Positions 2,082 to 58,600 of a DNA stretch of 64,000 bases are shown here, in pieces (within the stretch, counting starts at the first letter, position 1; each line of letters opens with the position of its first letter). The position numbers and the translations under genes are program-made. This DNA is from Xiphophorus maculatus (lineage: Eukaryota; Chordata; Actinopteri; Cyprinodontiformes; Poeciliidae): the NCBI RefSeq assembly GCF_002775205.1, contig NC_036453.1, positions 14,879,594-14,943,593 of the forward strand. The letters are read 5' to 3'. The notes under the pieces are model-generated. The model searched no databases, was not told where the DNA came from, and was given only the letters and a program-made list of their open reading frames with translations.

Positions 2082-4269
2082 CCGCAGAGCTGCAGAGGAA
2101 CCAATTAGAGATGACTCCTTCTGCTTGGTCTTCTTTCTCTTGGCCTTCATTGAAGTGCCTGAATCCATCTGAAAAAAAAAAACTCTGCTTACCTCTTAAC
2201 TAAACTTCTCAGACTAAAGCAGACATTATGTCCTATAACATGGAGAAGTCGAGCCTAGTAAAGTTAATGAACCCTACCTCAGGCTGGGGGTTCGGCTGCC
2301 TCTTCCGCTTCAAAGGTCTGCCAGGACTCTGCACGTTTTTTCCACCTGCTGCTCCAGCGGATCTCCGCTCTGAAATATGGAGAAAAAGGTTTTTTCATTC
2401 TTGTTGCCTTTTCATTTATTGTGAGATCTGTTAAACAAAAACCAAAGAACTAAGTTTCACTGATCAGATCGGATGTTATCTATATAAAACTGTAAAGTTT
2501 AGGAAGCCACAAATGCTGTACAGCATAAATCAAATTTCAGTTATCCATAGTATAAAAATAAAAAGCACAATAAAATCTTGACATGAAGGTCTGGGAGAAA
2601 ATAAAACTGTTTTGAGGTCCACCAGGATGTCCTTAGCACCAAGAGCTAATATCAAGGTCTCTGTCTCATTTGGGTTTAAAACCGGAAAGCTGCTGGAAAT
2701 CCAGTAACTGATCTGATACGAGATCAGACAGCCTATCCAGCTGTTAGGAGGTCACCTGCCGTCAGATCTCATCTGCACAGATGTGATTAGACAGAGACAT
2801 CAGGAAAAGTCTAAGTAATGGCAGCCAAAGAAAGAATGTACAAATGAATTAAAGATGGTGCCAGGACTGAGCCTTGTGCAGAGTCCAAGAAGAATTTGTT
2901 TGTCTTGATGCAGAATATCTTATTGGATTGATAACCATTCCAATGCAGAGCCAGAAATATATAAATCAAATCTCATCCAAAAAATATACATATTCCACCA
3001 TACAAGTTCCTATATTAAAATTAGAATCTGCTCTGGGAACTTTCACTTCTTGAGTCTTTCTGAAAGAAATTAGACACACACACAAAAAAAGATCACTGAA
3101 TCCAGAGTGGATTCAGAAAATTGAGTCCTGATAATGACACTGAAATTAAATTAATTTCCACATAGCATCAACATGTTTGATTCCCTTATTTACATCTGCA
3201 TCCTTATTGTCATTTATTGTCATGTGATTTATTGTCATGGCTTCTCCATGTCGGCCATTTTACTGCATCACCTGTTTGATGTTAATGTGATATTCAGTTG
3301 TAACCTGTTCACAATGTCTGGCTGCTTGGATAAACTTCCTTAATCCGGAGAAACAATTAACATTAATGAGATAGAAAAACTAACCAGAGGAGCAGAGCCT
3401 GCTGCTGGCAGAGCTCTGACTCTCTGAGGATCAATAAAGCTCCTCCTCTCTACTCCTAAAATTTTCTCACATTAGGAGCACCTTTAGGCCTGAGATGCTT
3501 TATGAGTAACATTCATCTTACCAGGAGCTACGTTTAGACTCAGGATTCTTTAAAAATATGAATTATGAGAAAAGTATTGGTCATCTGAAGTTAACAAAGC
3601 ATATTGTGATAAAACACTGACAATAGCACTAAATAATACTATGGAATTATTTTTGTTCTTATGTATAATATTGTTGAAATACGATGACCAAGTATCATTA
3701 TCTGCTTTTTTATATGAAGCCTAAAGTTTTAAAAATATTCTCCTTAAACAACCGGACCTGAGCTCTTCCAGACGCTCTGCTAGATTTATTTCACCATGCA
3801 TCATACTGCTATGCTATAACCGATACAGGGTATACGGTTCTTATTTTTTACTTAGTGAGGTAAAATCCATGTTTTTCTGATTCTGGGTTTCCAGTGTAAC
3901 AACTGAACATAGAGTAACCTCTTTACCAGAAAGTCCAGAGCAGAATAAGCTTTTTTTGAACTCACTGTTTTTTGTATGTTGTTGGTTTAGAGCTTCTAGT
4001 TTCTCAAGTATGGGCTGAATGAGGTCCTGGATCTTACGGTCCTTTCTAGGGATATCATCCATTGCCTTGCTGATTACATTGATTGACATGTCCAGTCCGT
4101 AGCGCTGGATGATGAATTCAGGCATTTTCGTTCTGAATTTTATATCCTTCTTTTTCCCTGGGATCTTATCCAAATGCAGAAAGAGTCTCTCAAAATCGTC
4201 TTCGGTTAGTTCATCCAGAATTGAGCTCAGATTCAATCTCCATTGGTTTTCAAGATCCTTCTTGGTCAT
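2082..4269 (-). CDS. Third PYRIN-domain gene segment (PYD exon plus two basic linker exons; 3' end off the window)
   Basis: Three exons join in frame: 3966-4269 (PYD), 2278-2369 and 2082-2168, all with AG acceptors and GT donors, giving 161 codons with no stop. The first exon encodes a PYRIN (DAPIN) death-fold, roughly residues 10-95. Helix 1-2 pattern is LSSILDELTEDDFERLFLHL, followed by the IQRYG and MDDIPRKDRK region seen in the other two copies. The next two exons are Lys/Arg-rich and nuclear-signal-like (PLKRKRQ, KAKRKKTKQK). The last donor is in phase 0, so more exons lie left of position 1. The PYD exon starts with ATG directly at its acceptor and accepts phase 0. It could therefore be a first coding exon, or be spliced onto the linker of the copy at 6368-7591. 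Role: probably death-fold oligomerisation in innate signalling (family inference). Confidence 0.65.
2370..3965. other. Intron of the third PYD gene, no gene seen
   Basis: AT-rich intronic sequence. I found no exon with splice sites and coding character on either strand and no recognisable element end. The 2,600-2,960 part looks like degraded repeat DNA that I cannot assign. Confidence 0.4.
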
Positions 4270-4719
4270 CTAAACACAGACATCAGAAAACGACGACCAG
4301 TGACCAAAGGAAAATTAAGTGATTCCCCAGTTTGTACTCATCTATCAAGTCAATTCTGTTCTTTTATATATTGGCAATTTAGACCACGTTGTTTCAAAGC
4401 ACATTACAAAAAAATAATATTTTAATCATAAAGACAGATTCCAAGCCAGTTCTGTACATTTCAGTTGATTGTTATCAGTGCATAACGTTTAGTTTTTTAT
4501 TCAAATTATCTAAGCAGTTTCTATCTAAGGAAACTCAGCAGACTTATAGCATTCACAACAGTAGAGAGGAAAAACTCCCCTTAGACAGGAAGAAATTTTA
4601 CTGCCAAAATCCAAGAGCACACATTTTCAATTTATATGGAGGACTTCATCTCTTTACTCTCAAAACATCTACTTTCTTCCAAATATTCTCTATTTTCCTT
4701 TTTTTGGCCAAAATTGGAA

Positions 4720-5730
4720 TTGGCAGATCAGGCTTTTTAAAGATTCATAATCTTTAAAAAGATTATCCAATCTTTTGTGATTGGTCAAAACATTGCTATT
4801 GCTGCACCCCTATAATTATTTGAAAATGAATCGTATTTGCATACTGTGGAGCCAGAGTAACTGACTGAGCTGTAATTTTTTATGTTCTACATAAGAAATT
4901 ACTACTAGTATTCATTAGTAATCTAGTTTAAATACTAGTAACATTTTCCCTGTTGTTGTCGACTTTACATGAAGAAATCTTTATCTCCAACATCCGTTTT
5001 CACACTGGAAAATAAGTAAGTAGACTTTATCATTCACACTATAAAACATAACTGAACAAAACTTAATTTTTCTATGCTCAGCATAAAGGACATAAAAAAT
5101 AATGTAACTAGATGTAAAGCAGTCCATGAATAAGGATATTAAAAGGTAATAAAAGGTATTTACATCCTCTCATATTTTAAAATAAAAACTTATCAATAAC
5201 TAGCTATGTCTGTCAGGATCTGTTCCTTATCTGTGTTTATTTTGAGTTTCTGTGTCTCTGAGTCTCCGTGTTGTCCTGTCTCCCCTTGATTGTTCCCAGG
5301 TGTTTCTTGTCTCCTTGATTGCCCTCTGTGTATTTAACCCTACCTGTGTTCTTTGTTCCTCGTCGTGTTTGTCTAGTCTGTGTGTGTCACCAGTTGTGAG
5401 TATTTGCCCTGCGCTCCTTTGTGCTGCCTGGTCTTTTGGACTTTGATTTTCATTAAACTACCTAATTCATCTCGACCTGGGTCTGTTGCCTCTGCCTCAC
5501 CACCAAATCATGACAATATCACCTGATATGAAATGCTGTGATACATTTTTCAGTCGCATTGCACAGTTAACTTTATTAGCTAACTAATAAAGTTATTAGT
5601 TAACTAATAATGTTATTATTAACTTTATCGTATTATTAAAACAGACCACAAATTTTCTCATTTGCAATTCTGTTTTTTTAAATGAGAAAAGATTTAGTTC
5701 AGAGCAAGACAAGCATTTGTCAGAAACTGT
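4720..5730. repeat. Duplicated intron segment, copy 1 (pairs with 10050-10725)
   Basis: The order of shared phrases is the same in both places: attatttgaaaat, a gagagtaactgactgagctg phrase, tatttacatcctctcatat, then tctcatttgcaattct and gagcaagaca. The similarity stops just after 5,730 and 10,725. Copy 1 sits 0.45 kb upstream of its PYD exon, and copy 2 sits in intron 1 of the truncated PYD gene. This implies that the PYD exon at 3966-4269 arrived with a piece of upstream intron. Copy 1 contains an extra 309-bp element (5207-5515). Confidence 0.75.
5207..5515. mobile_element. Non-autonomous element with matching empty site in the paralogous segment
   Basis: The sequence from gtctgtcagg to aatcatgaca is missing from the paralogous segment at about 10,550, where the flanks read straight through (ctat then atcac). 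Filled and empty sites fit a 2-bp AT duplication. The body (with repeated cc-ttgattg and a tttaaccctacctgtgttc core) is a widespread teleost repeat type. The ends are short imperfect inverted repeats (tgtca/tgaca). Superfamily not assigned. Confidence 0.65.
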
Positions 5731-6049: not shown

Positions 6050-6560
6050 TTTGTATTTCATTTTAATTCATTTAAAGCACTTTGAATTGCCTTGTTGCTG
6101 AAAATGTGATATATAAATAAAATTACCGTACCTATTGATGGTTCCTCAGTTGTTGGCTGAATGTTTTTATGACTTATTTTTGTGTTTTTATTATGTAAAG
6201 CACTTTGAGCTACCTTGTTGCTGAAATGTGCTATGCAAATAACTTTAATGATTAACTGATAAAAACGTGTTGCAGTATCTGAGATCATAAAGAAATTGTT
6301 GGATAATGAGTCTAAAACAGACTAAATTACGCCGGTGTGTAGGACTGTTGGTTACTGTGATGGTTACCTTCTCAGACTGAGAACTTCCTGGATCGTCTGT
6401 AGAAGAAGAAGAAGAGTCAGGGAGTTTCTGCTCTGAAGAGCTGATCTTCAATATAATGAAGATACACAATATAATGTTTGTGTAATCTTTCATGTTTTCA
6501 TCTCGTCAAGCAGTTTGAATTTCCTTGTTGCTGAAATGTTCAGTATAAATAAACTTGCCT
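6050..6560. repeat. LINE-type 3' tails (three short copies)
   Basis: The phrase 'agcactttgaattgccttg' with ttgctgaaatgtg and a TATAAATAAA-like end occurs at about 6,068-6,125, 6,195-6,245 and 6,505-6,556. It recurs at about 18,240-18,298. This is the usual 3' tail of several fish LINE/SINE families. The 6,505 and 18,240 copies are paralogous through the segmental duplication, and the first two are separate insertions. Confidence 0.5.
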
Positions 6561-7640
6561 AATAAACATTAAATTGCTCAGTGTGAGTAAAAACTCACCA
6601 GTTTTAACATCATCGTCATCATCATCACTCTCAGTCTTCTTCTTCTTCTTCTTTAACTCTGTTAAACACAGACATCAACATGAGTTAATCTGGTTCTGAT
6701 CCGTAAACAGACCCAGAACTGAGATCAATCTAGCTGCAGGTTTTTCACCAGCAGCAAAGCACATTTTGAGAAATGAATCAGTGATTCAACTTCACTTTCT
6801 ACCCAGCAGGGGGAGCTCTAAGATCAGCAGGAAATGTTCATTGTTCTTAAAGGAGCAATTTTAAACCCATTTAAAGGGACAGTTCAGGTTTTTCACCAAC
6901 CGGATGGAGACTCCTGCTGCTCCTTTGACTCTGGTCCAGGTTTCCTCTTCTTTCCTGTAAAACAGTTTAAACAGTCAAAGCTGTTGAATTATAGTTTCAT
7001 TCATAAACATCTTCATCACTGCTCTATGAACTCATGCTGTCATTATTTCTGGATCTTTGTCTTTATTATCAGCTCTGAACTTTGGTCTGAAACCAAAGCA
7101 GGGTCTGAATGCAGAACATCCTGAACCCAGAAGTTAGGAGGAACCTTGGTTTTAACTTTGGACTGATAGATTCATTAGGACGGTTCAGTGACGGATTAAA
7201 TGTGCATTACAAACACCCAACCAACAGCAGACCACCAGAACAATCCTGACCCGCCTCCTCAGGGTCTGTTCTGGACCCTGCATGTTGAGCAGAACCTGAA
7301 ACCGATCCAGCAGCATAAACTCACTTGGTTTCTCCACAAATGGACGCAGCAGGTTCTGAATTGGAGAATCGTTTCTCGGTATCTTATTCATGATCCTCCT
7401 GATTTCAGCGATGGACTTCTTCTCTCCATAATGCTCAATGATGGTCTGAGCCGTATGTTTTCTGGGTTTCCTATTCTTCGCATTTTTAGGGATTTTCTTC
7501 AGATATCGCAGCATCTCTTGGTACTGTGATCTGCTGAGAAGCTCTATGATCCTGCTCAGGGCGCTCTTCCATTCTCGGCTTTCACACATTTCTGAGACAA
7601 AGAGAGATTTACACCACTGTTAACACCAACAAATTCATCT
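6319..7640. repeat. Segmental duplication, copy A (pairs with 17469-19340)
   Basis: Near-identical sequence over the linker exons, the intron and the PYD exon in both places. Differences include a 33-bp insertion in A at about 7,015-7,050, and about 170 bp plus a third linker exon present only in B (17664-17723). The left boundary, agactaaattacgccggtgt, is sharp in both copies. Confidence 0.85.
6368..7591 (-). CDS. Truncated PYRIN-domain paralogue (PYD plus acidic linker, OB exons missing)
   Basis: Exons 7325-7591 (start codon 7587-7589, preceded by ctcag|aa), 6599-6658 and 6368-6396 join in frame to 118 codons. Residues 1-90 are a PYRIN domain closely similar to that of the complete gene at 15143-19299 (same MCES start, RIIE.L helix, QTI.EHYGE.KSIAEIRRIM helix). 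The linker encodes a Lys run followed by TESDDDDDDVKT and DPGSSQSEK. No OB-fold exon follows. Similarity to the complete gene stops at about 6,319, in the intron after the last linker exon. No stop codon is reached, so the transcript must read on. The next compatible exon downstream is the phase-0 PYD exon at 4269, which would give a double-PYD protein. Otherwise this is a truncated decoy or pseudogene. A non-coding leader exon lies at 11171-11227. Confidence 0.65.
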
Positions 7641-14330: not shown

Positions 14331-15142
14331 TATTACAGCTACATCAGGAGAAGCCATGATGATCACACCTGGCTAGTGATCGCAATCTATCGGTCAGCCC
14401 AGCGAGAAATATTGTGACGTTCAAACATCGCGAGATCTCATACGACAAAACTGTATTCAAGCTTAGTTATGTTTAGTAATATTAAATACAAGTAAAACAT
14501 ATGGTGCCATAAAACTACTCCTGTGACATTAAAAAAAACAAAACATTACTTTAGTAAAAGTAATTAGTAAATACTCCTCTTCACACAGGTGTTCTCTAAT
14601 TGTTGCAGACCATCTCTGAGTCTGGACCTGATTATTAGCACGACCTCTTCTGTCTTTAGTTTCCCTGTTAAAGTGTCTGACTCCAGAGGAATCCTCCAGA
14701 CTTGTAGAACATCAGCAGGTTCTCAGGACGACAGATTTCCACCCCGATAGCTTGAACAGACGACCAGCAGTGCAGGTAAAACACCCGGTTCTGCTGCTGG
14801 TTCCCAGTCGGCTGGAATGTAACCTGACTTGTGTTTGAGCCTTCAGAGAGCTGAGCAGGAAGTAGAGAGGAGCCAAAATAAAAAAGCGACTCCAGCAGGT
14901 TTTAATGTCTCATAATTTTTATTCCAACCTGAGCATTTTAGTTTTGGGAACCACTGAGACTTCATAGTTCTCAGGAACAAATGCCACAGATTTATCAAAC
15001 ATGAACGTCTTCATAAGGACTCAACAGATTTAGGCTAAAACAGAGCACAAAGCAGATTATAACAAATTACGCTGCATGATTCTGAAGCATTTCATTCTTT
15101 AATAAATAAAAGCTTGTAAGTTAAAAGCTGTTTCTGGTAAAT
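14330..15142 (-). other. Boundary and 3' UTR of the PYD-OB gene
   Basis: On the minus strand the UTR runs from the stop at 15143 to a canonical AATAAA (plus-strand TTTATT at 14918-14923). From 14,330 to about 14,900 I see no gene. A plus-strand gene is not supported here. Confidence 0.5.
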
Positions 15143-18100
15143 TTACATTTCTTTTGCAGCTTTCAGATCTTGGATCTGGTTTCCTTTTATTTCTGCTTCA
15201 GCTGAAAACGGGGTTTTCTGCAGAAGTCTTCCTTCCATGTTGCCATCTAGTTTGACACCAAAAGCTTTAGCCAGAAGACGGGAAGAAGCAATGAAGGTGC
15301 TCAGCTGGTCGTTGATCATCACGTCCAGCTTAAACTGCAACCCGTCATCTTTTCTGATCCCTATAATCTGCATGGAGACATTCTGGACAGCGGCAGCTTG
15401 GACCTGGACAGAAACGGGTAAACAGGACAGTTGGATCTTAATGAGGCCCATCAAAGAAATGTGAAACCTGTAAACCGACATTCAGCCAAACATCTGAATT
15501 ATTTGAATGAAAATGTGTGAAAACATTCAGATTCGTGATGTGACTCAATTGAGACAACTATTTTTGGATATGCTGCTACATTATCGAAACGGTTATGTCT
15601 GTTTGTTTGAATGGATGCACATAATCCGAAAATATATACAAATTCACAAGTTAACAATCAAACTATGATTCCCTTGATATAGGCAGTGCTTTAAGAGGAA
15701 AACAGTGCCACTATTCTCTTTAATGTCATACAAATACGGGACAAAAATGAGGGTAATATTTTTATATAGATCTATAAATCTATGGATATGTAGTTTTATT
15801 GGACAGAAATTACAAAAATAAAAATAAGAACAAAGTGAGTGCTATATCAAATTCACATGAGTCGAATCCAAAGTGTCATGGAGCCACTTTCATTAGCTTC
15901 AAACCTCGTGGCGTTCCGACAAAACAAAGACGGAAACTAGAAGCTCATTGAAAACATGAAGAAGTGATGACAGACTACAGGGTTCAGTGAACACAATCTG
16001 TAAAATATATTTCTTGTAAGTATTAGGCCAGACCTCGTTGTGTTTTTGGCTTTTGGCTGGATAGAAATTCATCTAATGGCTTTCACTCAGTTATATTTAA
16101 AAGTAACTTTTTGGAAAACATATACTTTTAAGAGTAGTTTTACTGCATTGTACTTTTTAATTTTGCTTGAAAAATATTACTATGAACTACTGCTGCTCTT
16201 ATTTGAGTAAACTTTCTGGGTACTCTACCCACGGTGAGTAACTTCATTAAATGAAGGAAGGTTGTTGCTTGTGCATGCAGAGCTGCAGGGCAGCATTTTG
16301 ACGGGAAAACGTCCCTGTACTCTGAGGGGTAAAAAAAAAGAGCTTGGTACTTTGTTCTGGAGCGTACCGGCCTACTTAAAGAATGAACGTAGAAATCCTA
16401 TATATGAAAAATGGCTCATGTTACCTCAGTCTCTGTTTTGCATTCTGCTAGACATTTCCAGTGGTCTGAATAACGGCAGCAAAACGAGATAATAACCGGT
16501 ACCTTATAAATTCTGGTGAAGTCGGTGGAGTTCAGAGACACCGTCTCATAGTAACGGTTGGTCGTTAGGTTGGTCACTCTGACCGAATCTCCGACGGACG
16601 TTCCTCTCAGCTGCTCGGTGTCTTTGCGCCACAGTGTGATCCAGATGGAACCGGTTTCATCTTCAAGTTGGAACTTGCGTATATTTACTTTGGTCCTTTT
16701 TCTCTCCTGTTTGACCTGAGCTACTGAGCTGATCTGAGGACCACAGAGTGATTAAACCAGCATTGGAAATAATCCAACATTTTCAGAATAGTATATATAA
16801 AAACACAGACAGCCACAAATCTCTTGTGCTGAACATGTTTCAGCAGAAATCACTTACCCCAGTCACAGTCCCTTCAACACTCACTGCTGTTCTCTCCTTA
16901 AAGGACTGGATCTCCTCGATGGAGCAAACTGGTCTCTGGTTGTAAATCAACATCTGAGCCTCCAGCTCCAGAGTGTTGGGCACTTTAATCCCATTAGTCT
17001 TTGAGAATTGGTCAATTGTGAAAACCTTCATCACCATTTCATCATTGACTCTTTCCACCTTAACATTTTTGAAAAGGTAAAGTTGCCCCTCTTCAAATTT
17101 CTGAAATAGCTCTGTTCCATAAACCATGACTTTGATGCAGTCGGTCTCATCAGCAACTCCAAGGTAGAAGAAGCAATTCTTCTTCTTCTTCTTGTTTTCA
17201 TACGTACGCAGAGCAGATTTCTGAACAACCTTTCCAAATACAGGTTTTCCATTGGTGTCTCCACTTTCCTTCAGCAGCTTGATGCTCTGTCTCTGGAAAC
17301 AAGTTCAGAGAAATGATAGAAATTCACAAAGCAAATGTTTCAAAACAGGAGAAAAAATGTATGTTTGTAGTAATAACTAGAAGTTTCCAACTTACCCATG
17401 GAGGGATCTCTACTTTCTGGAAAATGAACAGAGTTAATAATTAATTGGTCATATATTATATATATACAGACTAAATTACGCCGGTGTGTAGGACTGTTGG
17501 TTACTGTGATGGTTACCTTCTCAGACTGAGGACTTCCTGGATCGTCTGTAGAAGAAGAAGAAGAGTCAGGGAGTTTCTGCTCTGATCTTTAGTTTTATAA
17601 ACAGACTTTGTTTGACCTGATTCTGTCTGTATTTACTCTGTGAAGTTGGTTCATTAAACTCACCAGCTTGAGTTTCATCATCTGAAGAATCTGAATCGGA
17701 CACAATGTTGTTCTTCTCAAACCCTGTTAAACATGAAGGGCAGCGGATCATCAGCAGGTCAGATTATAATTATTATTATTTTAGTGGTAGATCAGGTGAG
17801 ATCTGAGCTCAGGAGGTGTTCTCAGACAGCAGCTAACTCCAGACCACACCCACTTCACCTGAGGAACTAAATAAACATTGACCCAGGGAAAGACAGGCGT
17901 CGTCACAATGAACTCTGTCCTGAACCTTCAGAAACACATAGAGACAGTTACAACGTCGGCCTTCTATCACCTGAACAATATTTCCAGGATTAAAGAGCTA
18001 ATGTCCCAACAAGATCTAGAGAAACTCATCTTTGACCTGAATGTAGCTTAGGCCCCGCCCCCTATCTTATTTCTGCCCTGGGTCTTTACTGCCCCCTCGA

Positions 18101-19299
18101 CTGGCTCCTCTCAGTAGGACGCACGCTCTACCGAGTTCCTCCTGGATCAAAATACTAAAATATGACGGTAATGTCCAACACTGCTTTCCTTTATTTTGTC
18201 ACTACAATATAATGTTTGTGTAATCTTTCATGTTTTCATCTCGTCAAGCAGTTTGAATTTCCTTGTTGCTGAATTGTTCAGTATAAATAAACTTGCCTAA
18301 TAAACATTAAATTGCTCAGTGTGAGTAAAAACTTACCAGTTTTAACATCATCATCATCACTCTCAGTCTTCTTCTTCTTTAACTCTGTTAAACACAGAGA
18401 TCAACATGAGTTAATCTGGTTCTGATCCGTAAACAGACCCAGAACTGAGATCAATCTAGCTGCAGGTTTTTCACCAGCAGCAAAGCACATTTTGAGAAAT
18501 GAATCAGTGATTCAGCTTCACTTTCTACCCAGCAGGGGGAGCTCTAAGATCAGCAGGAAATGTTCATTGTTCTTAAAGGAGCAATTTTAAACCCATTTAA
18601 AGGGACAGTTCAGGTTTTTCACCAACCGGATGGAGACTCCTGCTGCTCCTTTGACTCTGGTCCAGGTTTCCTCTTCTTTCCTGTAAAACAGTTTAAACAG
18701 TCAAAGCTGTTGAATTATAGTTTCATTCATAAACATCTTCATTATTTCTGGATCTTTGTCTTTATTATCAGCTCTGAACTTTGGTCTGAAACCAAAGCAG
18801 GGTCTGAATGCAGAACATCCTGAACCCAGAAGTTAGGAGGAACCTTGGTTTTAACTTTGGACTGATAGATTCATTAGGACGGTTCAGTGACGGATTAAAG
18901 GTGCATTACAAACACCCAACCAACAGCAGACCACCAGCAGACCATCAGAACAATCCTGACCCGCCTCCTCAGGGTCTGTTCTGGACCCTGCATGTTGAGC
19001 AGAACCTGAAACCGATCCAGCAGCATAAACTCACCTGGTTTCTCCACAAACGGACGCAGCAGCTTCTGAACTTTCTCATCTTTTCTCGGTATCTTATCCA
19101 TGATCCTCCTGATTTCAGCGATGGACTTCTCCTCTCCATAATGCTCAAGGATGGTCTGAGCCATATGTTCTCTGTGTGTGTCATGCTTCACACTTTTAGG
19201 AATTTTCTCCAGTTTGTCCAGCATCCTTTGGTACTGCTGTTCGCTGAGCTCCTCTATGATCCTGCTCAGGGCGCTCTTCCAGTCTGAGCTTTCACACAT
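15143..19299 (-). CDS. PYRIN plus tandem OB-fold protein (PYHIN/AIM2-like architecture)
   Basis: Eight coding exons on the minus strand: 19035-19301 (ATG 19297-19299), 18337-18384, 17664-17723, 17517-17545, 17396-17416, 16858-17292, 16503-16733 and 15143-15403. They sum to 1350 nt, 449 aa plus stop. All have GT-AG borders and matching phases. Residues 1-90 form a PYRIN domain (RIIEELSEQQYQRMLDKL, then EKSIAEIRRIMDKIP). About 90-140 is a Lys-run and Asp/Ser-rich linker. About 141-285 looks like one OB fold (CIKVMVYGTELFQKF core, KKKKKN loop). About 286-362 looks like a second, RPA-like OB fold (QLEDETGSIWITLW, VGDSVRVTNL, VSLNSTDFTRI). The last 87 residues may be a third barrel. By family knowledge, PYD would nucleate ASC-type assemblies and OB folds would bind nucleic acid. 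Function is inferred. The leader exon is at 21126-21176 and polyA at 14918. Confidence 0.85.
15404..16502. other. Last intron of the PYD-OB gene
   Basis: About 1.1 kb of AT-rich intron. No coding exon, RNA gene or element termini were recognised. Confidence 0.5.
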
Positions 19300-19340
19300 T
19301 TCTGAGACAAAGAGAGATTTACTCCACTGTTAACACCAAC
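17469..19340. repeat. Segmental duplication, copy B (pairs with 6319-7640)
   Basis: Partner of the copy-A block. It also holds a LINE fragment at about 17,925-18,040 that copy A lacks, together with exon 17664-17723. Confidence 0.85.
17925..18045 (+). mobile_element. Short LINE fragment (L2/Rex1-like ORF2)
   Basis: One plus-strand frame reads LQKHIETVTTSAFYHLNNIS then RIKELMSQQDLEKLI. This is the conserved stretch (SAFFHLRNIARIR..LSQ.DAEKLI) after the reverse transcriptase of L2/Rex1-type LINEs. Only about 120 bp are recognisable. Confidence 0.65.
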
Positions 19341-19344
19341 AAAT

Positions 19345-21125
19345 TCATCTGAATCATTTATCAGGATTTTTTTTCACAATGTTATCACGCAGATATTGAC
19401 AAAAAAATAACGGAGAATGAACTAGTTGGCTGTTATGTTTCTAATGTAGGTGGTGCCCAGCTTGGTAATTTTGATATAAAATACCAATTTTATTATTAAT
19501 AATTCTCCTTAATTATAATTAATAGCCAAAACCAGCATGTTTATTTATACTGCACCAATTGGCAACATGTCACCTTAAAGCATTTTACAAATCAATTCAA
19601 TGCAACATACATCCATTCCTGTTTGATCGTAACTATCAAACAATACAGTCAAGTTCAGCTTATTATCCAAATTGGCTAAAACATTTTCAGTCATTGTGTT
19701 CTTCACTTACAGCATTTCATTTTTCTAGAGTGGATGCTGCACTTAAATAAAGCAAAGAGGTCTTATCTGGGTGATTTGGAAGCTGTTCTTGCAGAGCAGG
19801 CCAGCCTGTACCGGCACTTGTACGATCTCTCTGTGTGGGCTGATTTTTGGACAACACTGGCCCAATGCATATGCCACATCTCACATTTGAGCCAAATAGC
19901 GTCTTTAATGCTTCAGGTCCCAAGACGATCTCTTATGTATCATTGAAAAATAGAAGTGCCTGCGTACATTGTCATCAAACCAAAATGTAGTTTTTAAATG
20001 GTTGTGTATTTACAAGGTTAGAGAAGACATTTTGGACAATACACAATGTCACTTTTTGTTGGACAATGCACATTGTCCAACTCACTTTTTGTTGGACAAT
20101 GCACATTGTCCAACTCACTTTTTGTTGGACAATGCACATTGTCCAACTCACTTTTTGTTGGACAATGCCAATATAGCTCAGTAATGCCTGACTAAAGTTT
20201 TTCACAAACACTGTAACTGAAATAAATGTGGATGTTCAGAGGAGACCCCAGGCTGGTTGCCATGTTTAAGGCACGGTAGTGGTTCAGTCATGAACCAGTA
20301 CAGAAATCCTTCAACTCAACGGCTGAATGATAAAATGTGGTCCAGGTTGAGTGTTCAAACAAAACAAAGAACAAAGAGACCCAATCTAGCAGACTACTCA
20401 AGCTGCACTTTATGTAAAAAACCCATCTAACAGTTTCTCTTCCAGCTTTTTATTAAGAATGTTTCATATTTTTAATGTTGTTCTCTACGGGTGCTATTCT
20501 CTTCTTCAGTGTTTTTCGTGTGCATTCTGAGCCGGTGTCTCAATAAAAATGTTATGTTTTCATGATGATAATGATTCTTGATTTGTGAACAAATATCAAC
20601 TTTCACCATGACAATAATAACAATACATTTTATTTACGTAGAGGTTATAAAGAATTGCTATTTTTAAAATTCAGAGCAGTTTTATGTTGCAGCTTTCGTC
20701 CTGAAAAAATAACAACTGGAGTAAATGATCCAATTCATGAACAGAGATAGAATCTGAAACTGGATGGATCCCAGAAATGGACCTAATTATTCACCTGAGA
20801 GGTAAACAGAACCTGCAGAAAACTGAACTTCTGCTAAATATTACTGTCTGTTATTCACCTTAAAAACACAGATACACAGATAATCTCTTTAAGGTTTAAT
20901 TTAAACTTCACTGTAAATCCCTAACCAAGGGGTTGTTAGCAATTAGCTAACCACCAGCAGCTAATAAATACGAGTTAAAGTTTGAACACAATTTGAATTA
21001 GCGATTCAAATCTCCTTTTGTTTCCTTTTGACTCTGCGCTTGTTCAGGTACAGTAAATTATATTAACTAAATGTTGCAAAACATGCAATGGTTTCAGAAA
21101 TTAGCCCAAAACTGAAGCTACTCAC
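19345..21125. other. Intron 1 of the PYD-OB gene
   Basis: AT-rich intron holding the palindromic tandem array. A block at about 20,710-20,920 is paralogous to 10,780-10,960. No exon was recognised. Confidence 0.5.
20032..20168. repeat. Tandem 33-bp repeat made of near-palindromes
   Basis: Units start at 20032 (degenerate, 27 bp), 20059, 20092 and 20125 (33 bp each, identical by eye), and a partial unit starts at 20158. Each full unit holds two 10-bp arms, ttggacaatg and cattgtccaa, around a 2-bp centre, followed by ctcactttttg. The array is open in frames on both strands, but the frames are products of the repeat. Confidence 0.9.
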
Positions 21126-21176
21126 CGAACACCGTTTTCTCCAGTAGAAGCTGCCCAGCAGTAAAACTGAGTTCTG
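21126..21176 (-). other. Predicted 5' untranslated exon of the PYD-OB gene
   Basis: The minus strand shows TTTAACAG before CAGAACTCAG... and ends ...GGTGTTCG with the donor GTGAGTAGC, parallel to 11171-11227. It may be the 3' part of a longer first exon. Confidence 0.45.
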
Positions 21177-21359
21177 CTGTTAAAGGAGGAAAAATGTTCC
21201 TTTCTGTTAGAAAGAAGCTGATTTAAGCTTCAATGTTGGCCCAATGTTCTCACATAAATCACTACTCACACGGTGATTTAAAGCCTCGGTGAAATGCGCA
21301 GTGAAAGGAATTCCCGACGGAATATCCTGCTTTCTTTTTGTCCGCCTTTGAACGGGAAA

Positions 21360-21435
21360 GTCTTGCCGCCAAAGCCGAGAATTTCCCATGAGCTGTTGCG
21401 CTAGTACGTCACCGCCGCCATATTGCTGAGGGAGG
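21360..21435 (-). promoter_or_regulatory. Predicted promoter of the PYD-OB gene
   Basis: Contains the 20-bp motif at 21406-21425 shared with 12002-12021 (minus strand: YY1-like ATGGCGGC plus TGACGT). Just downstream is an E2F-like TTTGGCGGCAAG and TTTCCCG stretch at about 21,350-21,375. Copy A has a TTGGCGCC in the equivalent place (about 11,413). This is motif reading only. Confidence 0.45.
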
Positions 21436-41577: not shown

Positions 41578-41594
41578 TAGACAGATAGATAGGC

Positions 41595-41629
<35 letters not shown>

Positions 41630-41633
41630 TAGA
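41578..41633. repeat. (CAGA)n microsatellite
   Basis: Tandem cagacaga with gata variants at each end, 60 bp upstream of the P2Y start codon. Confidence 0.9.
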
Positions 41634-41693
41634 TGTGTGCTACAATGCCAGTGGATTCAGATCTGGTTGACCTTTAACCCTCAGAGGTTCGTG

Positions 41694-44600
41694 ATGGGTC
41701 TGGACCGGGTCTCCAGCACCACTCCACGCATCAACTACCTGGCTGCGGCGAGCCTCAACACTTCCACCCTCTCTGCCTCCTCCACCTCCTCCACCCTGCC
41801 TCCGTCTTCTTGCAGCATCGATGAATCCTACAAGTACGTCTTCCTGCCCGTTTGCTACTCCCTGACCTTCCTGTTCAGCCTGGTGCTGAACTCGGTGGTT
41901 CTGGTGCGGTCGTGCCGGCCCCATGGTGGCGGCGGCGGCGGCGGTGGGCGGCGTTGGAACACCTCCCTGATCTACATGGTGAACCTGGCCACCACAGACC
42001 TGATGTACGGCCTGTCGCTGCCCTTCCTGGTGGCGAGCTACGTGCTGAGGGACCACTGGGTGTTCGGGGACTTCATGTGCCGCCTCGTACGATTCCTTTT
42101 CTACTTCAACCTCTACTGCTCCATCTTCTTCCTCACCTGCATCTCTGTGCACAGGTAAGATGCTCTACCTCATGAAGCTGTGGGTTCCAGTCAGGGGCGA
42201 AACCGTTTTCTGATGTGAATGCAGACACATTTCAGCCCCCATGTGCCTCTGCTACTGATCTTATCATTAAACATGCACAAACAAATGTGAAGTACAGAAA
42301 TGTCGACTAGAAGTAATTTTTCAACCACGACTGTGGCGCCCTTCTAGTGCAGCGCCCCTAAGCATAGCATATTTAGCATTCCCACTTTTTGCACCACTGG
42401 TTCCAGTCAATAAAACCAAAATTCAGGAGAACCTTTTAATTGGAAACATTGAAAATTTAATTGGAAACATTGAAAGTTCCTTTAATGCCTTGAAGTATTT
42501 CTGTTTCTCTCTGAATTATTCCTACTCATTCAGGTGATTTAACAAGCTCCGCCCCTTCCTCCCAGGAAGGTACACCTGCCCATGTTCTTGGACAGTTTGT
42601 GTAAATTCTTGGTATTGTTAATTTTTGATGATTTTTACCTTTGAACTGTAAGTCACTAGTGGACAGTAGCTGTGAAACGTCTGAGGGTGTATGGCCCTCT
42701 GAGCCAATCAGAGGCCTTGAAGACAAGGAACCTCTGAGCCAATCAGAAGCCTTGAAGACACGGGAACCTCTGAGCCAATCAGAGGCCTTGAAGACAAGGA
42801 ACCTCTGAGCCAATCAGAGGCCTTGAAGACAAGGAACCTCTGAGCCAATCAGAAGCCTTGAAGACACGGGAACCTCTGAGCCAATCAGAAGCCTTGAAGA
42901 CAGGGGAACCTTTGAGCCAATCAGAAGCCTTGAAGACAGGGGAACCTCTGAGCCAATCAGAAGCCTTGAAGACAGGGGAACCTTAGCCCATTTTACCAGC
43001 TGAGTTTAGTATTAAAGTGGAAAAACTGCTGAACAACCTGAACTCATTTCCTGAAGGATTCTAGAAAGCTGCGTGAAAAATACTCTGGATGTGTTTTCTT
43101 TTCTTTTTTGAAAATCTTCCGACTTGAGGAACCCTTTGTTATTTGTTGGGTTCTGGTCTTCTGGGTCAGTTCAGTCAACAGCGTGTTGCTGGTCAGCCAC
43201 TGACTCCCTGTGGATTTCCTTTCACTGTGATTTTCCAAAGAGTTTTCCTCCGTTGGAAGCTTAATGACGGTTTAGTCACACGCCGTTAACTCTGACAGTG
43301 TGTGACCCCGTTGGACGGACCATTGGGTCAATGAGCCCAGGTCTGTCAGTAGAACTGCTGCCAGTCAGTTTTAATGAAAGAAGCTGGAAATCTTGCTGAA
43401 AATCTAGAAAATGTTTGTTCTGCAGTATTTGTTTGGTTTCCATCCATATTAATTATCATCCATCCATTACGAAGAAGTTAGACAACAGAAAACATAAAAC
43501 TCTGCAGTAAACTGGAAGGTATTAAAAGTATAACCTTAGGTTGTATTGCCTGTTAGTTTATTTTTACAGTACTGATCACTTCCTGAAGTTCTGAAGAGTC
43601 CAACTGTCTCTGGTTGGACTCTTCAGAACGTCTGCCTCGTCCTCGTCCTGTTTATGAGGTTCGTGGACAGATTATAAGGCGTAGTTATGGAGTCGTTTGC
43701 TTTTATTCACATGATGAGGTCCTGCCTGTAGTTATGGTGGTTACAATGTTTAGATCTGGTCCCATAACTGGTAAGAGGTGGAATACTGTGGACCTTCACC
43801 TAGTCACAGATTGTTGAGGTACCAATTGGCTGCAGCCAAAGTGCTTCTGCAGCAGTACCAGACAGTTTTTGTTGTTTGGATTAATGCATATTAAGGTATA
43901 CCTGGTGTTTAAACTGTTAAAATAGGCAGTTGCAAGCATTTTTAGAGACGGTTTGGAGCATTCATGGATTTCAGATGTTTACAGGAAGTTATGGTCCTTA
44001 TTTCCCACAAACACCAGATTGCACTTCTTTCCCTACAGGCCATGTTGAGTCTCTGCAAACAGCTGAGGAGTTCCAGTATCCTGGTGTTTTTTACTTGTAG
44101 AGAAGCAGGACAGAGCGAGAGATGAATAAACACATCGACATTTAAGACCTTGATGATTTCTGATAGTGTGTGGTGTGGACAGATTATAAGGTGTAGTTAT
44201 GGAGTGTCTGTTGGGCTTTACAGGCAGGTACTGGAGCACCTGAAGGTCAGCAGACATGAAAAATATCTCATAGAAACATCAGAAACCACTTATTGGAGTT
44301 TAATGGGGTCACATTGATGGGCCTAAGTAGAGTTGGGGGGTTCTGTCTTGGTTTGGTATAAACAGACGTTGCAGTGGTCCATTGCTGAAACTGTTCATTA
44401 CTTGAGAGCAGATTAAAGAGTATTCGTCTGTCATCATCAGTAAGTCCCTGATGGAGTTAGAATGAGGTTATGTAAGCCAATATTGATGTGTCTACAGGTA
44501 CCTGGGGATCTGCCATCCAATGAGGACCATCACTCTGGAAAGCAAGCGGGTGGTGAAGGCGACCTGCGCCTCGGTGTGGGTGGTGGTCTTCGTTCTCACC

Positions 44601-45395
44601 TGTCCTATCTTCAGGTTTGCCCAGACAGGAGACGTTACTAGAAGAGGTTCTGGAGCAGTTGGACCTGAGGGGACGAGGTTTGGAGACAACAGGACTGAGG
44701 AGAAGTATGTGAACTGTTGGGATGATGCAGTCGATAAGGACTTTCCTGAATATGTCCCATACGGCATTGTCCTTCACCTGCTGGGCTTCTTTGTCCCCTT
44801 CGTCATCATCGCTTGGTGCTACTCTCAGGTGGTCCGGACAATATTTCAGAGCCTGCGGTCTCCACCCAGTTCAATAGAGGGCGGCGATGACACAGCAGCT
44901 GGGGACGGAGCAGTTGAAGGAGGTCGAGATCGGGACAGAACTTCAGTCTCCATCTCTGGATCACAGTACTCCCACTACATCCGGAGGCGGCGCAAATCCA
45001 TTAAAACCATCGTAACCATCACGCTGCTGTTTGCGCTCTGCTTCCTGCCCTTCCATGTGACCCGGACGTTGTTCCTGCTCCTGCGGCGGGGGCAGCTCGG
45101 CGGCTGCAATGCAATGAAGGCCGTCTCCATCTGCTACAAGGTCACCAGGCCTCTGGCCTCCTGCAACGCCTGGCTCAACGCCCTACTCTACTTCCTGACA
45201 GGAGACAAAGGAGCCCCCTGCTGCTGGCCAGCGGAACGAACAGTGCACCAGGACAGAAGAAATGGCTCCCTCTGGTGGCCATTAACAATACTTAGGAAGG
45301 AAGGAGGCGGAGAGGACGAGCAGGAGGCGGCCGAGAAGGTAGCAAGGGAGCTGCAGATGGAGAATGAATCCAAGTCTTCACGGATCATCTTCTAG
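41694..45395 (+). CDS. P2Y-type nucleotide receptor (P2RY2/4/6-like GPCR)
   Basis: Two exons, 41694-42154 and 44498-45395, give 452 aa plus stop. Seven helices can be traced. TM1 is near VCYSLTFLFSLVLNSVVLV and TM2 holds MVNLATTDLMYGLSLP. TM3 ends in CISVH-RYLGICHP with the intron splitting the Arg codon of HRY. TM5 is PYGIVLHLLGFFVPFVIIAW. TM6 has the P2Y HxxR motif in CFLPFHVTRT, and TM7 has YKVTRPLAS, typical of P2RY2/4/6. These residues bind nucleotide phosphates in the family, which couples to Gq. Oddities: eight consecutive Gly codons in the first intracellular loop, a long acidic third loop (about residues 275-315), and LNALLYF where P2Y receptors have LDPVLYF. The start was chosen as the first in-frame ATG. 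It could also be a P2RY3-like fish receptor. Confidence 0.85.
42694..42981. repeat. Minisatellite, 8 units of 35-36 bp, each with a CCAAT box
   Basis: Each unit contains gagccaatcaga followed by ggccttgaagaca or agccttgaagaca and a short purine spacer. It lies in the single P2Y intron. The AGCCAATCAG core fits the NF-Y consensus in all eight units (one unit has a t before the core). Confidence 0.9.
43588..43629. repeat. Perfect inverted repeat, 17-bp arms
   Basis: The arms gttctgaagagtccaac (43588-43604) and its exact reverse complement (43613-43629) flank an 8-nt loop. Intronic in the P2Y gene. Confidence 0.9.
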
Positions 45396-47261: not shown

Positions 47262-49699
47262 TCAGCTGATCTGCTCCCACCGGGTGGCGCTCACCAGCCT
47301 GTAGTTGAACTCCCGGTAGTTTTCTGGGTGAACCTGTCTCTGCCTCCAGACCTCCTCATAGAGGCTGCGAACTGCCGGCTGGAGAGGCGGGAAGCCGGCG
47401 GAACCGGCCAGAGTGTCGCAGTATTCCCATTGGTCCTGGTCCAACTTCAGCAAGTGGTGGTGCTGGACCCCGGCCTCCAGTTTCCTCTGGTGCTCCCTCC
47501 GCACCACTTCCTCCATCTGCTCCTGAGGCGGCACGGTGACCGACCCATCCAGCACCGCCAGGGCAAACTGGACCTGAGGAGACCAGAACCATCTGAGACC
47601 GCTCCCCAAGGTTCTTCACCGGCGGATGCTGCAGCTCACCTGGCAGTCGAAGTTGGGGAAGGGGCAGATGATTTTACAGATGCCAATGAAGATCAGTGAA
47701 GGGAAGGCGGGAGGCATCATGTAGCGGTACAGAGGGGATACCACATGGTTCTGGATCTCTAGACCCAGCCGGGCCGGGTCCAGGAACGGGTAGCTGAAGT
47801 TGTACCCAGTGCAGAAAATCAGAACGTCGGCCTGACATACGGAGCCGTCCTGAGGGAAACATTTGAACCACTCAGAGGGAGGTTTCACCTCAACATGAAA
47901 CATTCTGAGGTTCTGGAACCAGAACCGGAACCAAAGTGGTTGGTTCTGCAGGATGGGCTCACTTGGAGGCGGATGGTTCCGTCGTCCTGGACCGCCACCA
48001 CGCAGCTCGCCTGCTGGATCCCGGGAGGAAGAGGAACGGTCAGCGGAGGGTTCCGGTGACTCAGAGTCACCTGCAGAGAAAACACTTTCTCATTCATTGA
48101 TTTGGGCTCTGATGTCATCGGAGGACATGGTTAGTTCTGGAGAAGCCCCGAGTTAAAAATGGTTCATAGTTTTAATTAACTCTGATGGTACCTTGGCTCC
48201 AGCCTTGACCAGCTCAATGGAAATGTCCAGTCCGGAAGCTTTAGCTCCCAGAACCACCACCGTCTGACCCGAGAATGGCTCGGCGAAGCGGTACGAGTGA
48301 CTGTGGAGAACCGTTCCTGAAGACACACAGCGTTTATCAAAAGTCTTTACTCTGTGTGACCTGCTGCCATCCCTGACTCAGAGAAACACGGTACCTTTAA
48401 AGTTCTGTATCCCCGGGATGTTTGGGATGTGAGGGTCCGAGTAATGCCTGAGGACACAGACATTAAACCTTTGAGGCATAAGATTGGAGCAACAGTGACC
48501 CCCGGTGGCAGGAGGCAGAATAACATTCTGTTTTTAAGCCGTACAAGGAATTACAGGAACCATCAGGTCTCCCTGAAATTTTGTGGTTAGAAAATGATAA
48601 GTTGAAGCTTTCCACCAACACAACATTTAGCGGAAGCTAATGCTAAATTATTAAACCAACACAGTATTTAGCAAAGGCTAATGCTAAGTGATAAATTCGA
48701 TTGTGTTGATACCCACAATGTGTCATTAGGAGGAGAGTAGAAACCGAAGCGATCGTCAATGTCAGTGACCCTTATCAGGTGCAGAATCAAGGATCGTGTT
48801 AGAGACTCATGTCATGTTGATGGCCTCTATGGCGACCTCTATTGCCCAGCGCCTCCTTCGCATGATGGCTTGAGGCAAATTCACGACGACAGTCCAAAGA
48901 GCTCAACGTTACACTGGATCAGCCAGAGAGACCCAGCAGAAGCAACAGAGGTGAGCCAATACTCTGACTGGGTTTGTTGAAGCTAACAGAGTTTATAGCC
49001 AATATGAAAACATGCTTCATCTTTTTACTTCATTATCATGCCATATGATACCATGGTAGCAACCCGCTACGCACCCTGAACAGATGAACACTGCATCAAA
49101 TGTCTCCGTTTTCTGATGACCCGTTGAGTCTAATGATGTCACTTCCCATGTGATCTTGCTCTCCCCGTTCTCTGCTGTCGTGGAAACAGGCGTAACGTTT
49201 TCCACGGCTGTGTCAAACTGGTGATGGAGGATAAATCGGTTATCTTGACTGGGACGGTTACTGGACTCCGGGATCAGTGGGAAGACTCACCCGGATGTGA
49301 GGCCGGATCCGGAAGTTCTCACAGTACCTCTCCAGGTACCGCTGGACCTCCTGGTGGGACAGGAAGCTGCTCAGCTCAGGATCAAAGGGGTAGTCAGGGA
49401 ACATCATCACCTCTTTGGGCAGGTTGGTTCTGTTTGAAAACCAGAACTGGGTCACAACTCATGAGGAGTCAGCTGCTGGCAGACAGGTGACCTTACCTGA
49501 GGTCCCTGTACATACTGCTGAGCACTGGTCTCCCGTTGGGGTATGTCCCGATTCGCTCCTCGTAGCACCAGGTCCCGCCCACATTCCCACTGACCTCAAA
49601 CACCACTGGGGGGGCAAAGCTGGCGGGGCGGGTCAGGATGTGGCGAGCCGCACAGAGTCCGGCTGCTCCCGCTCCAACCACCGCTACCCGCTGCAGCAT
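47262..49699 (-). CDS. Flavin-containing monooxygenase, GS-OX-like type
   Basis: Eight coding exons on the minus strand: 49497-49699, 49291-49429, 49075-49217, 48395-48447, 48192-48316, 47963-48070, 47640-47849 and 47262-47573. Total 1293 nt, 430 aa plus stop, all in phase. The N-terminus has the FAD-binding GxGxxG (VAVVGAGAAGLCAARH). EVSGNVGGTW is the typical E-x7-G-G-x-W segment. HYSDPHIPNIPGI precedes the NADPH site, which reads VVVLGAKASGLDISIEL. IFCTGYNFSYPFL is the FATGY-like motif. At 430 residues, without the C-terminal membrane helix of FMO1-5, it fits the shorter GS-OX-like branch found in fish. Expected reaction: NADPH- and oxygen-dependent S- or N-oxygenation, substrate unknown. 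The 5' UTR continues to 49726 and a leader exon at about 50780-50880. Confidence 0.9.
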
Positions 49700-55676: not shown

Positions 55677-58600
55677 CTACACCGGGGAAGTGATGTTGGC
55701 CCACAAGGGGTAAGAGTCCAGGGAAAACAGGACGCGCCCCCAGCTGTTGATGGCCAGAGTGATGCAGCCGATCCCGATGATGTTCATCACCACGCCGGTT
55801 TTAGCCTGTGCAGCACAACAGCAGGTTATCATTGTGGATCTTCCTTTTCTTTCACAGACATGGGGTGGGGGGTGGGGGCGCACTCACCATGTCAGACACT
55901 TTGAGGAAGCCGGAGGAGAAGACGATGGCGTTGGGGGGCGTGGCCACGGGCAGCATGAAGGCGAAGGAGGCGCTGAGTGTGCAGGGTATCATGACGTACA
56001 GCGGGTTCAGGCTGATGGACTGGGACTGGACCAGAACACAAAACAAAACCTGCTTTTACTCTGCGCCGACCACAACCAGCTGTTGGCATCATGCTTAGAC
56101 CTGCAACTGTTACCATGGAGGCAAGGATGGGCAGGAAGAGCGTTGCCGTGGCAACATTGCTAGCACACTCCGTGAAGGTGGCGATGAGGAGGCAGAGGAT
56201 GATGGCGATGGCCCACGGCGGGATGGAGTGCAGCGGCGTCATCTGAGCACCGAGCCAGCGGGAAAGACCGGACACCTGTAAACACGGAAACAGACTTGAT
56301 TCCTCCCAGAAGCCTCGCTGTTCTGGAAAGTGATTAGACTACAAAATGATGAGGTCATGACTCAGGAATTTAAACTGCAGTGTATCTCTGCCTGGTCACT
56401 GAATTTCCTCTGGAATGTAACTCCAAATCTTTTGTGGAAAAGTCAAGTTCACCTCGCTGCCTTTAGCCAGAGCGAAGCCGCCCCCCAGCAGGAGGACGAT
56501 GTTCCAGGGCATCTTGTCATGGGTCACCTGCCAGGTGAGCAGCGGCGAGGCGGGGCCTCGGGACAGCTGGCTCTCTGATTGGAGGAGAAACAGCTCTAAC
56601 TGCGTGTGAATCCCAGGAAGTGTATGCTGAGCGAGTTTTACCGGAGTTGGAGCGCCGCCAGAAGCAGAGGCAGCGCGGCGGCTCGGAGGGAAGGACGAAC
56701 AACAAGATGGCGACGAACAACGAGACGGTGGCGTCGGTGACGAACCTGCGGAGACGCACAGAACCGGACTGAACTCACAGAACCCTACAGAACCAGACTG
56801 AACCAAGCAAACACACACAGCTTGTAGTCAATCTGCTGCAGATTTTGACACACACAGAACCCAGCAGAACCGGGCTTTTGTCAATGTGGGAAATGTCTCT
56901 GATCTCCTGATCAGCTGCAGTCTGAACTTCATGGACCCAACATGCTGGGTTTGTGAATGGCCCAACTGTTTGCACACACTCAGCGACCCGGTCCATACCG
57001 GGACATGTCCACACCGTCTCCACGTGGCAGCGTCTCTCCATTTGACCCCTGACCTCTACAAGGCTTCCATTCTTTCTTTTTTTTACCCCTCCAGGGGGTC
57101 TTTTGTGGGCTCTAGTGTCCCTTATATGACAGTGGGCTGACAGGAAATGGGGAAGAAGAGGGGGGAAGAGATGCGGCAAATATCGTCGGGTCCGGGAGTT
57201 GAACCCGCGACGGCCGTGTCGAGGACTCAAGGCCTCCAAATACGGGTCGCGCTAACCGCTACGCCACCAGGGCACGCCCAGGCTTCCATTCTTGAATAAA
57301 AGGTCTCAGTTCAGCTCATTGACATGACTGGAATCCGGAGCCGCCCTGGTTCTGGTCGGGTTTTACTAGATATAAAACACTAGATATCAGTGTTGGTGAG
57401 GTAGGAACAATATTAGCAGAACATCAGGATCCAGAACTTGTAAAATATATCACTGCATAGTTCTCATGTGATGTCACACTGCAAGGAACTTTGTGGCTGC
57501 CATCTTGGTTATGCTAATTACCAAGCTAGTTACGGTTTCCGTAACTAGCTGTCATGGTAGTTGCTGTGGAGTTGCTATGGAAACAATGAACGAGCCACAA
57601 GCTTAGAACTAGCTCTCGCCTTTTTCCTATCCTATTTATGAACAATGTAAGTAATTACAACTATTACTCAACGACAGTTTTTGAGTTCTCTACTTTCTCT
57701 TAGTCTCAAACCCATGGTCCATCTGCTCTTTGCGCTGCACTTGCCTACCTAGATGGCGGTTCAGTGGTTCGGATCACTTCCGGTTCAAACTTGTGTGACT
57801 TCTGCATTACTGCACTCCAAATGCTCCTTTCGCATGTGAATATTTTGCACACTAATGTTGAGATGATGATACAGTCATGAGAAATGGAAACTGGATCAGG
57901 GGTTGTTCAGATTCAGATTCTTTCCAGATTCAGATTTTCCTGTGACCTAATGTTTGACCTTTAACCCCAGAACCACTGAGCAGTTGGAATGAATTTGATG
58001 TTATTGTGGTTCCGCAGCAGGTTGGGGTGATACCAGACATCTGGACTCACGGCTGGCGGATAACCTGGTTAGTGATCTGAGCTCTGAACATCTGAACCAA
58101 TCAGACGACTCCTTGTCTCTGAGCAGAACGATGTCAGGAGTGGACATGCAGGACCCTGCTGCTGTTTCCTCAGCTGAAGGTCACAGCAGGTCCAGCAGAG
58201 GGGGAATCTGACCCGTCTGTTTGTACGACCTGCAGCTGAACGGTTCTGATCCGACGGACCCTGCTGGGTCCCACTGCTGGGTCCCACCGCTGGGCATCGG
58301 CTCCGACTTACAGGAATTTCCCCAATATCTTCCAGTTCTGCTCAGAGTTGCTCAACAAACCTTCCCACCAGGTAGACCAATAAGATGCTGGCCCCTGAGC
58401 GTGTCATACAATCTGTGCAGTTAAATGAGACAAAAGTTGGAAAAGTTCCCGGGTGTGAAGACTTTTGTTCTACATCAAACAGTGAGATTTAAAGACTTCA
58501 CACTGCAGGTTTTCAGAGTTCTGGAGTTTAGACCCTGGACCTGTCCGGGTTTAGCACTTTCTGTCCTCTGTAATGTTATTCTTCTCCAAAGCTTCTTTTA

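Follow-up and report, generated by a model that had tools for sequence, protein, structure and literature searches.

Within the window, the 64,000-nucleotide stretch of Xiphophorus maculatus DNA analysed here (contig C11, positions 14879594-14943593, in a genome of 704 Mb on 101 contigs), lies a predicted gene, gene A, whose product would carry a PYRIN-like domain, a charged linker and two OB folds, in the order known from the mammalian PYHIN DNA sensors. The tests agree that both the sequence and the predicted fold of the first OB fold (OB1) are like those of HIN, that the second (OB2) is RPA-like and that the pair is collinear with DBD-A/DBD-B of RPA70. We propose, with a probability of roughly 55%, that gene A encodes a PYRIN-domain (PYD) receptor with a HIN-like tandem OB module derived from an RPA70-type DBD-A/DBD-B pair, acting in the manner of AIM2 and IFI16 and sharing its ancestry with the PYHIN genes.

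Reading of open reading frames (ORFs) and splice sites placed gene A on the minus strand, where nine coding exons running from 19299 to 15143 join in frame to 467 amino acids, and all eight introns of the predicted model are GT-AG (Table 1). A first-pass annotation of this DNA had described eight exons and 449 amino acids; the in-frame join was confirmed, and the best model is close to that description, differing from it in exon count and length. The domain order is PYRIN-like domain, charged linker, OB1, OB2 and an 86-amino acid tail. The charged linker of that annotation was recovered as basic and acidic runs in the linker exons, and its quoted motifs are present, KKKKKN in OB1 and both QLEDETGSIWITLW and VGDSVRVTNL in OB2. 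Two in-frame donors follow OB1, at 16867 and 16858, and the model uses 16858 (GTAAGT). The linker is the least certain part of the prediction, because numerous alternative linker joins also stay open in frame. OB1-OB2 is basic, with an isoelectric point (pI) of 9.4. The tail, where a third OB fold had been suggested, has no Pfam match; related sequence is also present in a paralog, gene B, and in 12 mobile copies described below. The PYHIN-like layout of PYRIN and tandem OB folds that had been claimed is upheld by the in-frame join of the nine exons and by gene B, which repeats the order, and from the sequence we judge gene A and its PYD-linker-OB-OB layout to be very probably real. Upstream of coding exon 1, at 20050-20175, a unit of about 33 bases containing a palindrome (TTGGACAATGCACATTGTCCAA) was seen by eye, repeated in tandem about three times in full and once in part.

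To describe OB1, we compared it with sequence families and with structures. The OB1 exon alone scored 26.3 bits against Pfam HIN (cut-off 22.7, E 7e-6), with the remaining families at E 0.008 or worse, while the OB and tail part of gene A reached 22.1 bits and the whole protein 21.1 bits, just under the cut-off. A HIN profile search of the genome (14 candidates scored) gave 13 matches up to E 10. Gene A leads them (25.1 bits, E 0.005) and the 12 mobile copies make up the rest; all but one of the 13 were flagged over the cut-off, and gene B was absent from the 13. Mobile copy L020 scored 29.3 bits against Pfam HIN, and gene B scored 20.7 with OB1 and 18.6 with the OB region. Against the PDB, the single gene A protein matched the Ifi204 HIN domain first (E 0.0014). 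With an OB1 profile built from three sequences, the PDB yielded 23 matches up to E 10. Mammalian HIN domains fill the first ten places (E 4.6e-8 to 0.0021), followed by an RPA-related protein (E 0.01) and human RPA70 (E 0.068); the top E-value is the sum of three weak Ifi204 stretches, and the best single stretches belong to IFI16 (independent E-value 1e-4). When the AlphaFold2 (AF2) model of OB1 was submitted to Foldseek, HIN made up nine of the ten top matches, so the predicted fold resembles the HIN OB fold. In VIA, RPA70 and SSB rows stand close behind HIN, and for this reason VIA by itself cannot decide between HIN and RPA. The first-pass annotation had pointed to HIN profiles and to the predicted OB structure as places where its proposal could be checked, and for OB1 both came out in its favour. 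These profile and model comparisons give good support to OB1 being a distant relative of HIN.

The pair as a whole pointed to RPA70. A profile of OB1, OB2 and tail matched Ustilago RPA70 first in the PDB (E 6e-10), spanning both OB folds; Sulfolobus SSB matched it at OB2, in agreement with the earlier suggestion that OB2 is closer to RPA, and HIN chains appeared from E 5e-5 onwards. OB2 scored 39.3 bits against a general OB family of Pfam and passed its cut-off of 27. The whole gene A protein lies above the cut-offs for tRNA_anti-codon (37.5) and CDC24_OB3 (35.4), the best stretch being OB2, and gene B scored 35.5 with REPA_OB_2. The RPA70 DBD-C family (Rep_fac-A_C) scored 13.5 bits, located on OB2, against a cut-off of 28.5. 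We also compared the OB pair with a fragment of the fish's own RPA1, comprising DBD-A and the start of DBD-B, whose exons were joined by eye from locus L053. The two are collinear at 21% identity (E 8e-7), and the RPA1 fragment has no HIN match up to E 10. That gene A is RPA1 itself is ruled out, as RPA-like loci (REPA_OB_2) lie elsewhere and the RPA1 fragment lacks the HIN match. Going by splice sites only, two exons, one for OB1 and the next for OB2, code for the OB module in gene A, in gene B and in mobile copy L020. We read the OB pair as probably RPA70-derived, with a HIN likeness in OB1 that RPA1 does not have.

The PYRIN-like domain gave weaker matches. The N-terminal PYRIN domain of the first-pass annotation held insofar as PYRIN is the top Pfam family for coding exon 1 (20.0 bits, E 8e-4) and for the two further PYD exons of the window, yet the three score 18.9-20.1 bits, under the cut-off of 22.9. 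In the PDB, the PYD profile found the NLRP4 PYD on top (E 8e-5), with the remaining PYDs at E 0.9 or worse. The AF2 model of the domain had a predicted local distance difference test score (pLDDT) of 52, and Foldseek returned no PYD for it and nothing better than E 4.6. The sub-threshold scores and this structural result are the weak point of the PYHIN-type reading. A genome search with the window PYD gave three matches at E 0.1 or better, every one inside this cluster, and the 41 PYRIN-profile matches in the genome at E 1e-3 do not include this PYD. PYRIN-profile matches cluster at C3:12.83-12.90 Mb and C24:14.175-14.189 Mb.

The two further PYD exons lie on the same strand, about 12 and 15 kb beyond gene A. 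The more distant one opens gene B, for which a complete model of 461 amino acids is predicted; its parts, from PYD through linker, OB1 and OB2 to tail, follow the order of gene A. Strand and exon order are the same, and exon phases compatible, in these diverged paralogs (identity 41% in OB1, 48% in OB2 and 46% in the tail). Over the 299 codons of OB1, OB2 and tail, the ratio of nonsynonymous to synonymous substitution rates (dN/dS) between genes A and B was 0.39 (NG86) or 0.51 (YN00), values given without a significance test. OB1 alone gave 0.36 or 0.60 and the tail alone 0.81 or 1.09, and synonymous sites were saturated in OB2 alone. Judged from the coding sequence, constraint is seen in the region as a whole; we do not claim it for the tail by itself, because of the tail-alone values. 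The nearer exon belongs to a truncated tandem copy, A', in which no OB exon was found within the window after the linker exons. Between A' and A, coding exon 2 is identical, and the two introns that follow the PYD exon reach 99.7 and 99.2% identity (with 38 gap columns in intron 1); the PYD exon itself (7325-7589 versus 19035-19299) is just 83.8% identical, an island of divergence. A test for positive selection on the PYD, comparing A with A', was not significant (37.3 nonsynonymous changes over 212 sites, 4.7 synonymous over 52; Fisher p 0.21), and exchange between paralogs is equally likely, because the synonymous sites of the exon also diverge more than the introns.

Copies without a PYD were found outside the cluster. 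A genome search with the OB1 exon gave 14 matches: gene A, gene B and 12 near-identical copies on nine contigs at 70-72% identity. When 3.4 kb of 11 of these loci were compared with the twelfth, L020, they were 98.5-99.8% identical. In 11 of the 12, the OB1, OB2 and tail exons run their full length with neither gaps nor stops; in L019 the OB2 match lacks its first two bases and is read out of frame. Three contigs (C7, C24 and C57) hold two copies each, in opposite orientation. Of the nine contigs, four were examined (C10, C22, C7 and C12), and on these long inverted repeats flank the copy; the element on C10 measures about 15.8 kb (C10:about 21388347-21404180), with inverted ends of about 1.5 kb that are 99.7% identical. 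A 118-base piece of the element end has at least 47 genome matches (of 128 candidates, 40 were scored), and several form opposed pairs at which no gene copy was found, as on C4 and C18; C22 only weakly matches the piece. The captured segment, which comprises linker, OB1, OB2 and tail, starts some 28 bases ahead of coding exon 2. A PYD was sought at four of the mobile-copy sites and not found (best weak match E 0.079). These features indicate that a DNA transposon has captured the linker, OB1, OB2 and tail exons of a related gene. The element may also have taken the OB half of A' with it, because homology between A' and the element stops (window 6344; 21324 of the C10 stretch) at the point where homology between the element and gene A is interrupted.

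Table 1. Predicted exons of gene A, copy A' and gene B, and loci of the mobile copies. Positions are those of the window unless a locus is given.
Feature	Position	Strand	Content
Gene A, candidate 5' non-coding exon	21126..21435	-	donor GTGAGT at 21126; plausible, from sequence only
Gene A, coding exon 1	19035..19299	-	PYRIN-like domain, amino acids 1-88; ATG at 19299
Gene A, coding exon 2	18627..18680	-	linker, basic GKKRKP
Gene A, coding exon 3	18337..18384	-	linker, KKKK and acidic run
Gene A, coding exon 4	17664..17723	-	linker, acidic
Gene A, coding exon 5	17517..17545	-	linker
Gene A, coding exon 6	17396..17416	-	linker (KVEIPPW)
Gene A, coding exon 7	16858..17292	-	OB1, HIN-like, KKKKKN loop; interdomain linker; probable first strand of OB2
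Gene A, coding exon 8	16503..16733	-	OB2, RPA/SSB-like (LEDETGSIWITLW, VGDSVRVTNL)
Gene A, coding exon 9	15143..15403	-	86-amino acid C-terminal part and stop codon
Copy A' (truncated, tandem), PYD exon	7325..7589	-	71-72% identical to coding exon 1
Copy A', linker exon	6901..6954	-	identical to coding exon 2
Copy A', two additional linker exons	near 6600-6659 and 6368-6396	-	read by eye
Gene B, PYD exon	3966..4269	-	paralog
Gene B, linker exon	2278..2369	-	PLKRKRQP
Gene B, linker exon	2082..2168	-	OB1, OB2 and tail exons then follow left of the window
Gene B, OB1, OB2 and tail exons	L009:6278-6691, 5307-5540, 4606-4862		left of the window
Mobile copies	L014-L025 on C7, C24, C57, C6, C10, C17, C22, C23, C12		12 near-identical copies

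Ten ORFs were scanned with Pfam. To the right of the cluster lie a rhodopsin-type G-protein-coupled receptor (41589-45395), an FMO-like gene (47616-48089) and pieces of a sodium/sulphate-type transporter (56396-62205). At 781-1526 on the plus strand, ORFs resemble by eye a reverse-transcriptase remnant of a long interspersed nuclear element (LINE), and the first of them has no Pfam match.

We propose AIM2/IFI16-type action for gene A because of its layout, its basic OB part and its charged linker. If the gene is transcribed, the basic OB1-OB2 module would bind nucleic acid, binding would cluster the protein, and the clustered PYD would recruit a PYD adaptor such as ASC. RPA binds single-stranded DNA (ssDNA). 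By analogy, the ligand could be of the ssDNA or the double-stranded DNA (dsDNA) type, given an OB1 that is HIN-like (dsDNA) and an OB2 that is RPA-like (ssDNA). Mammalian HIN binds dsDNA, according to an excerpt on AIM2 and p202 in Cridland et al. 2012 (PMC3458909).

The first-pass annotation had left two origins side by side, distant kinship with PYHIN or a PYD joined independently to RPA-like OB folds; its description is supported, and we lean to shared ancestry. Under the independent origin, the PYD of a fish lineage was fused within that lineage to an OB pair derived from RPA70, PYHIN remains mammalian, and OB1 came to resemble HIN by convergence from the same kind of RPA70 ancestor; such a protein may still sense nucleic acid. 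The collinearity with RPA1, the closeness of OB2 to RPA and SSB and the weak relation of the window PYD to known PYDs are all consistent with it. So is the literature. The excerpted text of Cridland et al. 2012 reports no trace of HIN outside mammals, with zebrafish among the genomes searched (PMC3458909), and excerpts of a 2026 paper, whose survey is said to cover mammals, birds, reptiles and fishes, place the origin of PYHIN in therian mammals (PMC13253634). Likewise, a 2021 review states in the part available that PYHIN is absent outside mammals (PMC7905024), and a published statement, also in excerpt, has teleosts without AIM2. Among the literature matches listed, as titles and beginnings of abstracts, no report of a fish HIN or PYHIN gene was found, most subscription papers and database annotation being outside the search. 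Against convergence, however, stand the OB1 sequence, which is closer to HIN (the first ten PDB matches) than to RPA70 (human, E 0.07), the fish RPA1, which gives no HIN match, and the recurrence of the same partner, a PYD, with the same layout of one OB1 exon and one OB2 exon. We therefore regard parallel invention as rather doubtful, and common ancestry of gene A with the mammalian PYHIN genes as somewhat more probable than not; the balance likewise favours shared descent of the whole PYD-OB arrangement. On that descent, OB1 would already have become HIN-like and OB2 would have stayed nearer RPA.

A different question is whether the PYD signals through ASC. The protein might bind nucleic acid and use its PYD for other homotypic contacts or for regulation, for instance as a nuclear restriction factor, with a PYD-only copy such as A' serving as a decoy. 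The basic linker stretches in A and B, possibly nuclear signals, would suit this, as would a PYD that is weak and strongly changed between A and A'. PYDs, however, generally act by PYD-PYD assembly, and the layout fits receptors; we consider signalling without ASC unlikely. That the PYD exons and OB exons are two separate genes, merged by an annotation artefact, is highly improbable, since gene B repeats the layout with the same order, strand and compatible phases despite divergence, and the genome's three matches to this type of PYD all sit in this cluster. A viral origin found no support: no relatives were confirmed among 92 pattern matches in IMG/VR, and no BFVD fold match reached E 0.001 or better.

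Taken together, these results lead us to class gene A as a PYHIN-like variant rather than a proven PYHIN member, because its PYD (18.9-20.1 versus 22.9) and its whole-protein HIN score (21.1 versus 22.7) lie under the cut-offs. AIM2-like receptors are in print a mammalian or therian invention, and a fish protein that combines a PYD with a HIN-like OB1 and an RPA-like OB2 would either push this origin back or show parallel assembly. Gene A would also make the step from RPA70 to HIN testable and would supply a candidate DNA receptor for fish inflammasomes. More tentatively, we suggest that PYHIN-type DNA sensing may be older than mammals. Ray-finned fish would then retain a PYD-OB-OB receptor in which OB1 has reached the HIN state and OB2 is still RPA-like, which would reveal how HIN arose from RPA70; a fish transposon would have taken up the DNA-binding half, lacking the PYD, as a potential decoy in the manner of p202.

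Like the mammalian PYHIN proteins (AIM2, IFI16, MNDA, IFIX and mouse p204), gene A has an N-terminal PYD-like domain, a charged linker and tandem OB folds, of which OB1 scores as HIN. Its OB module, too, extends over two predicted exons; mammalian HIN is coded by two exons and keeps little sequence likeness to other DNA-binding domains, according to the excerpt of PMC3458909. Unlike those proteins, gene A occurs in a fish, its OB2 is nearer to RPA, it has the additional 86-amino acid tail, and its PYD falls under the Pfam cut-off. Further marks of the mammalian family are binding of dsDNA, signalling through ASC or STING, induction of interferon and a location between SPTA1 and CADM3. The OB pair is collinear with DBD-A/DBD-B of RPA70, from which gene A differs by the PYD and linker in front and by an OB1 that matches HIN. 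A protein made from the mobile copies, which have linker, OB1, OB2 and tail and no PYD at the four sites examined, would resemble p202, a mouse HIN protein without a PYD that antagonises the AIM2 pathway (excerpt of PMC3458909). In contrast to p202 these copies are carried by a DNA transposon. Finally, gene A shares a PYD-type domain with the teleost NLR, ASC and caspase PYD proteins, but where those have NACHT, CARD or caspase parts, it has an OB module.

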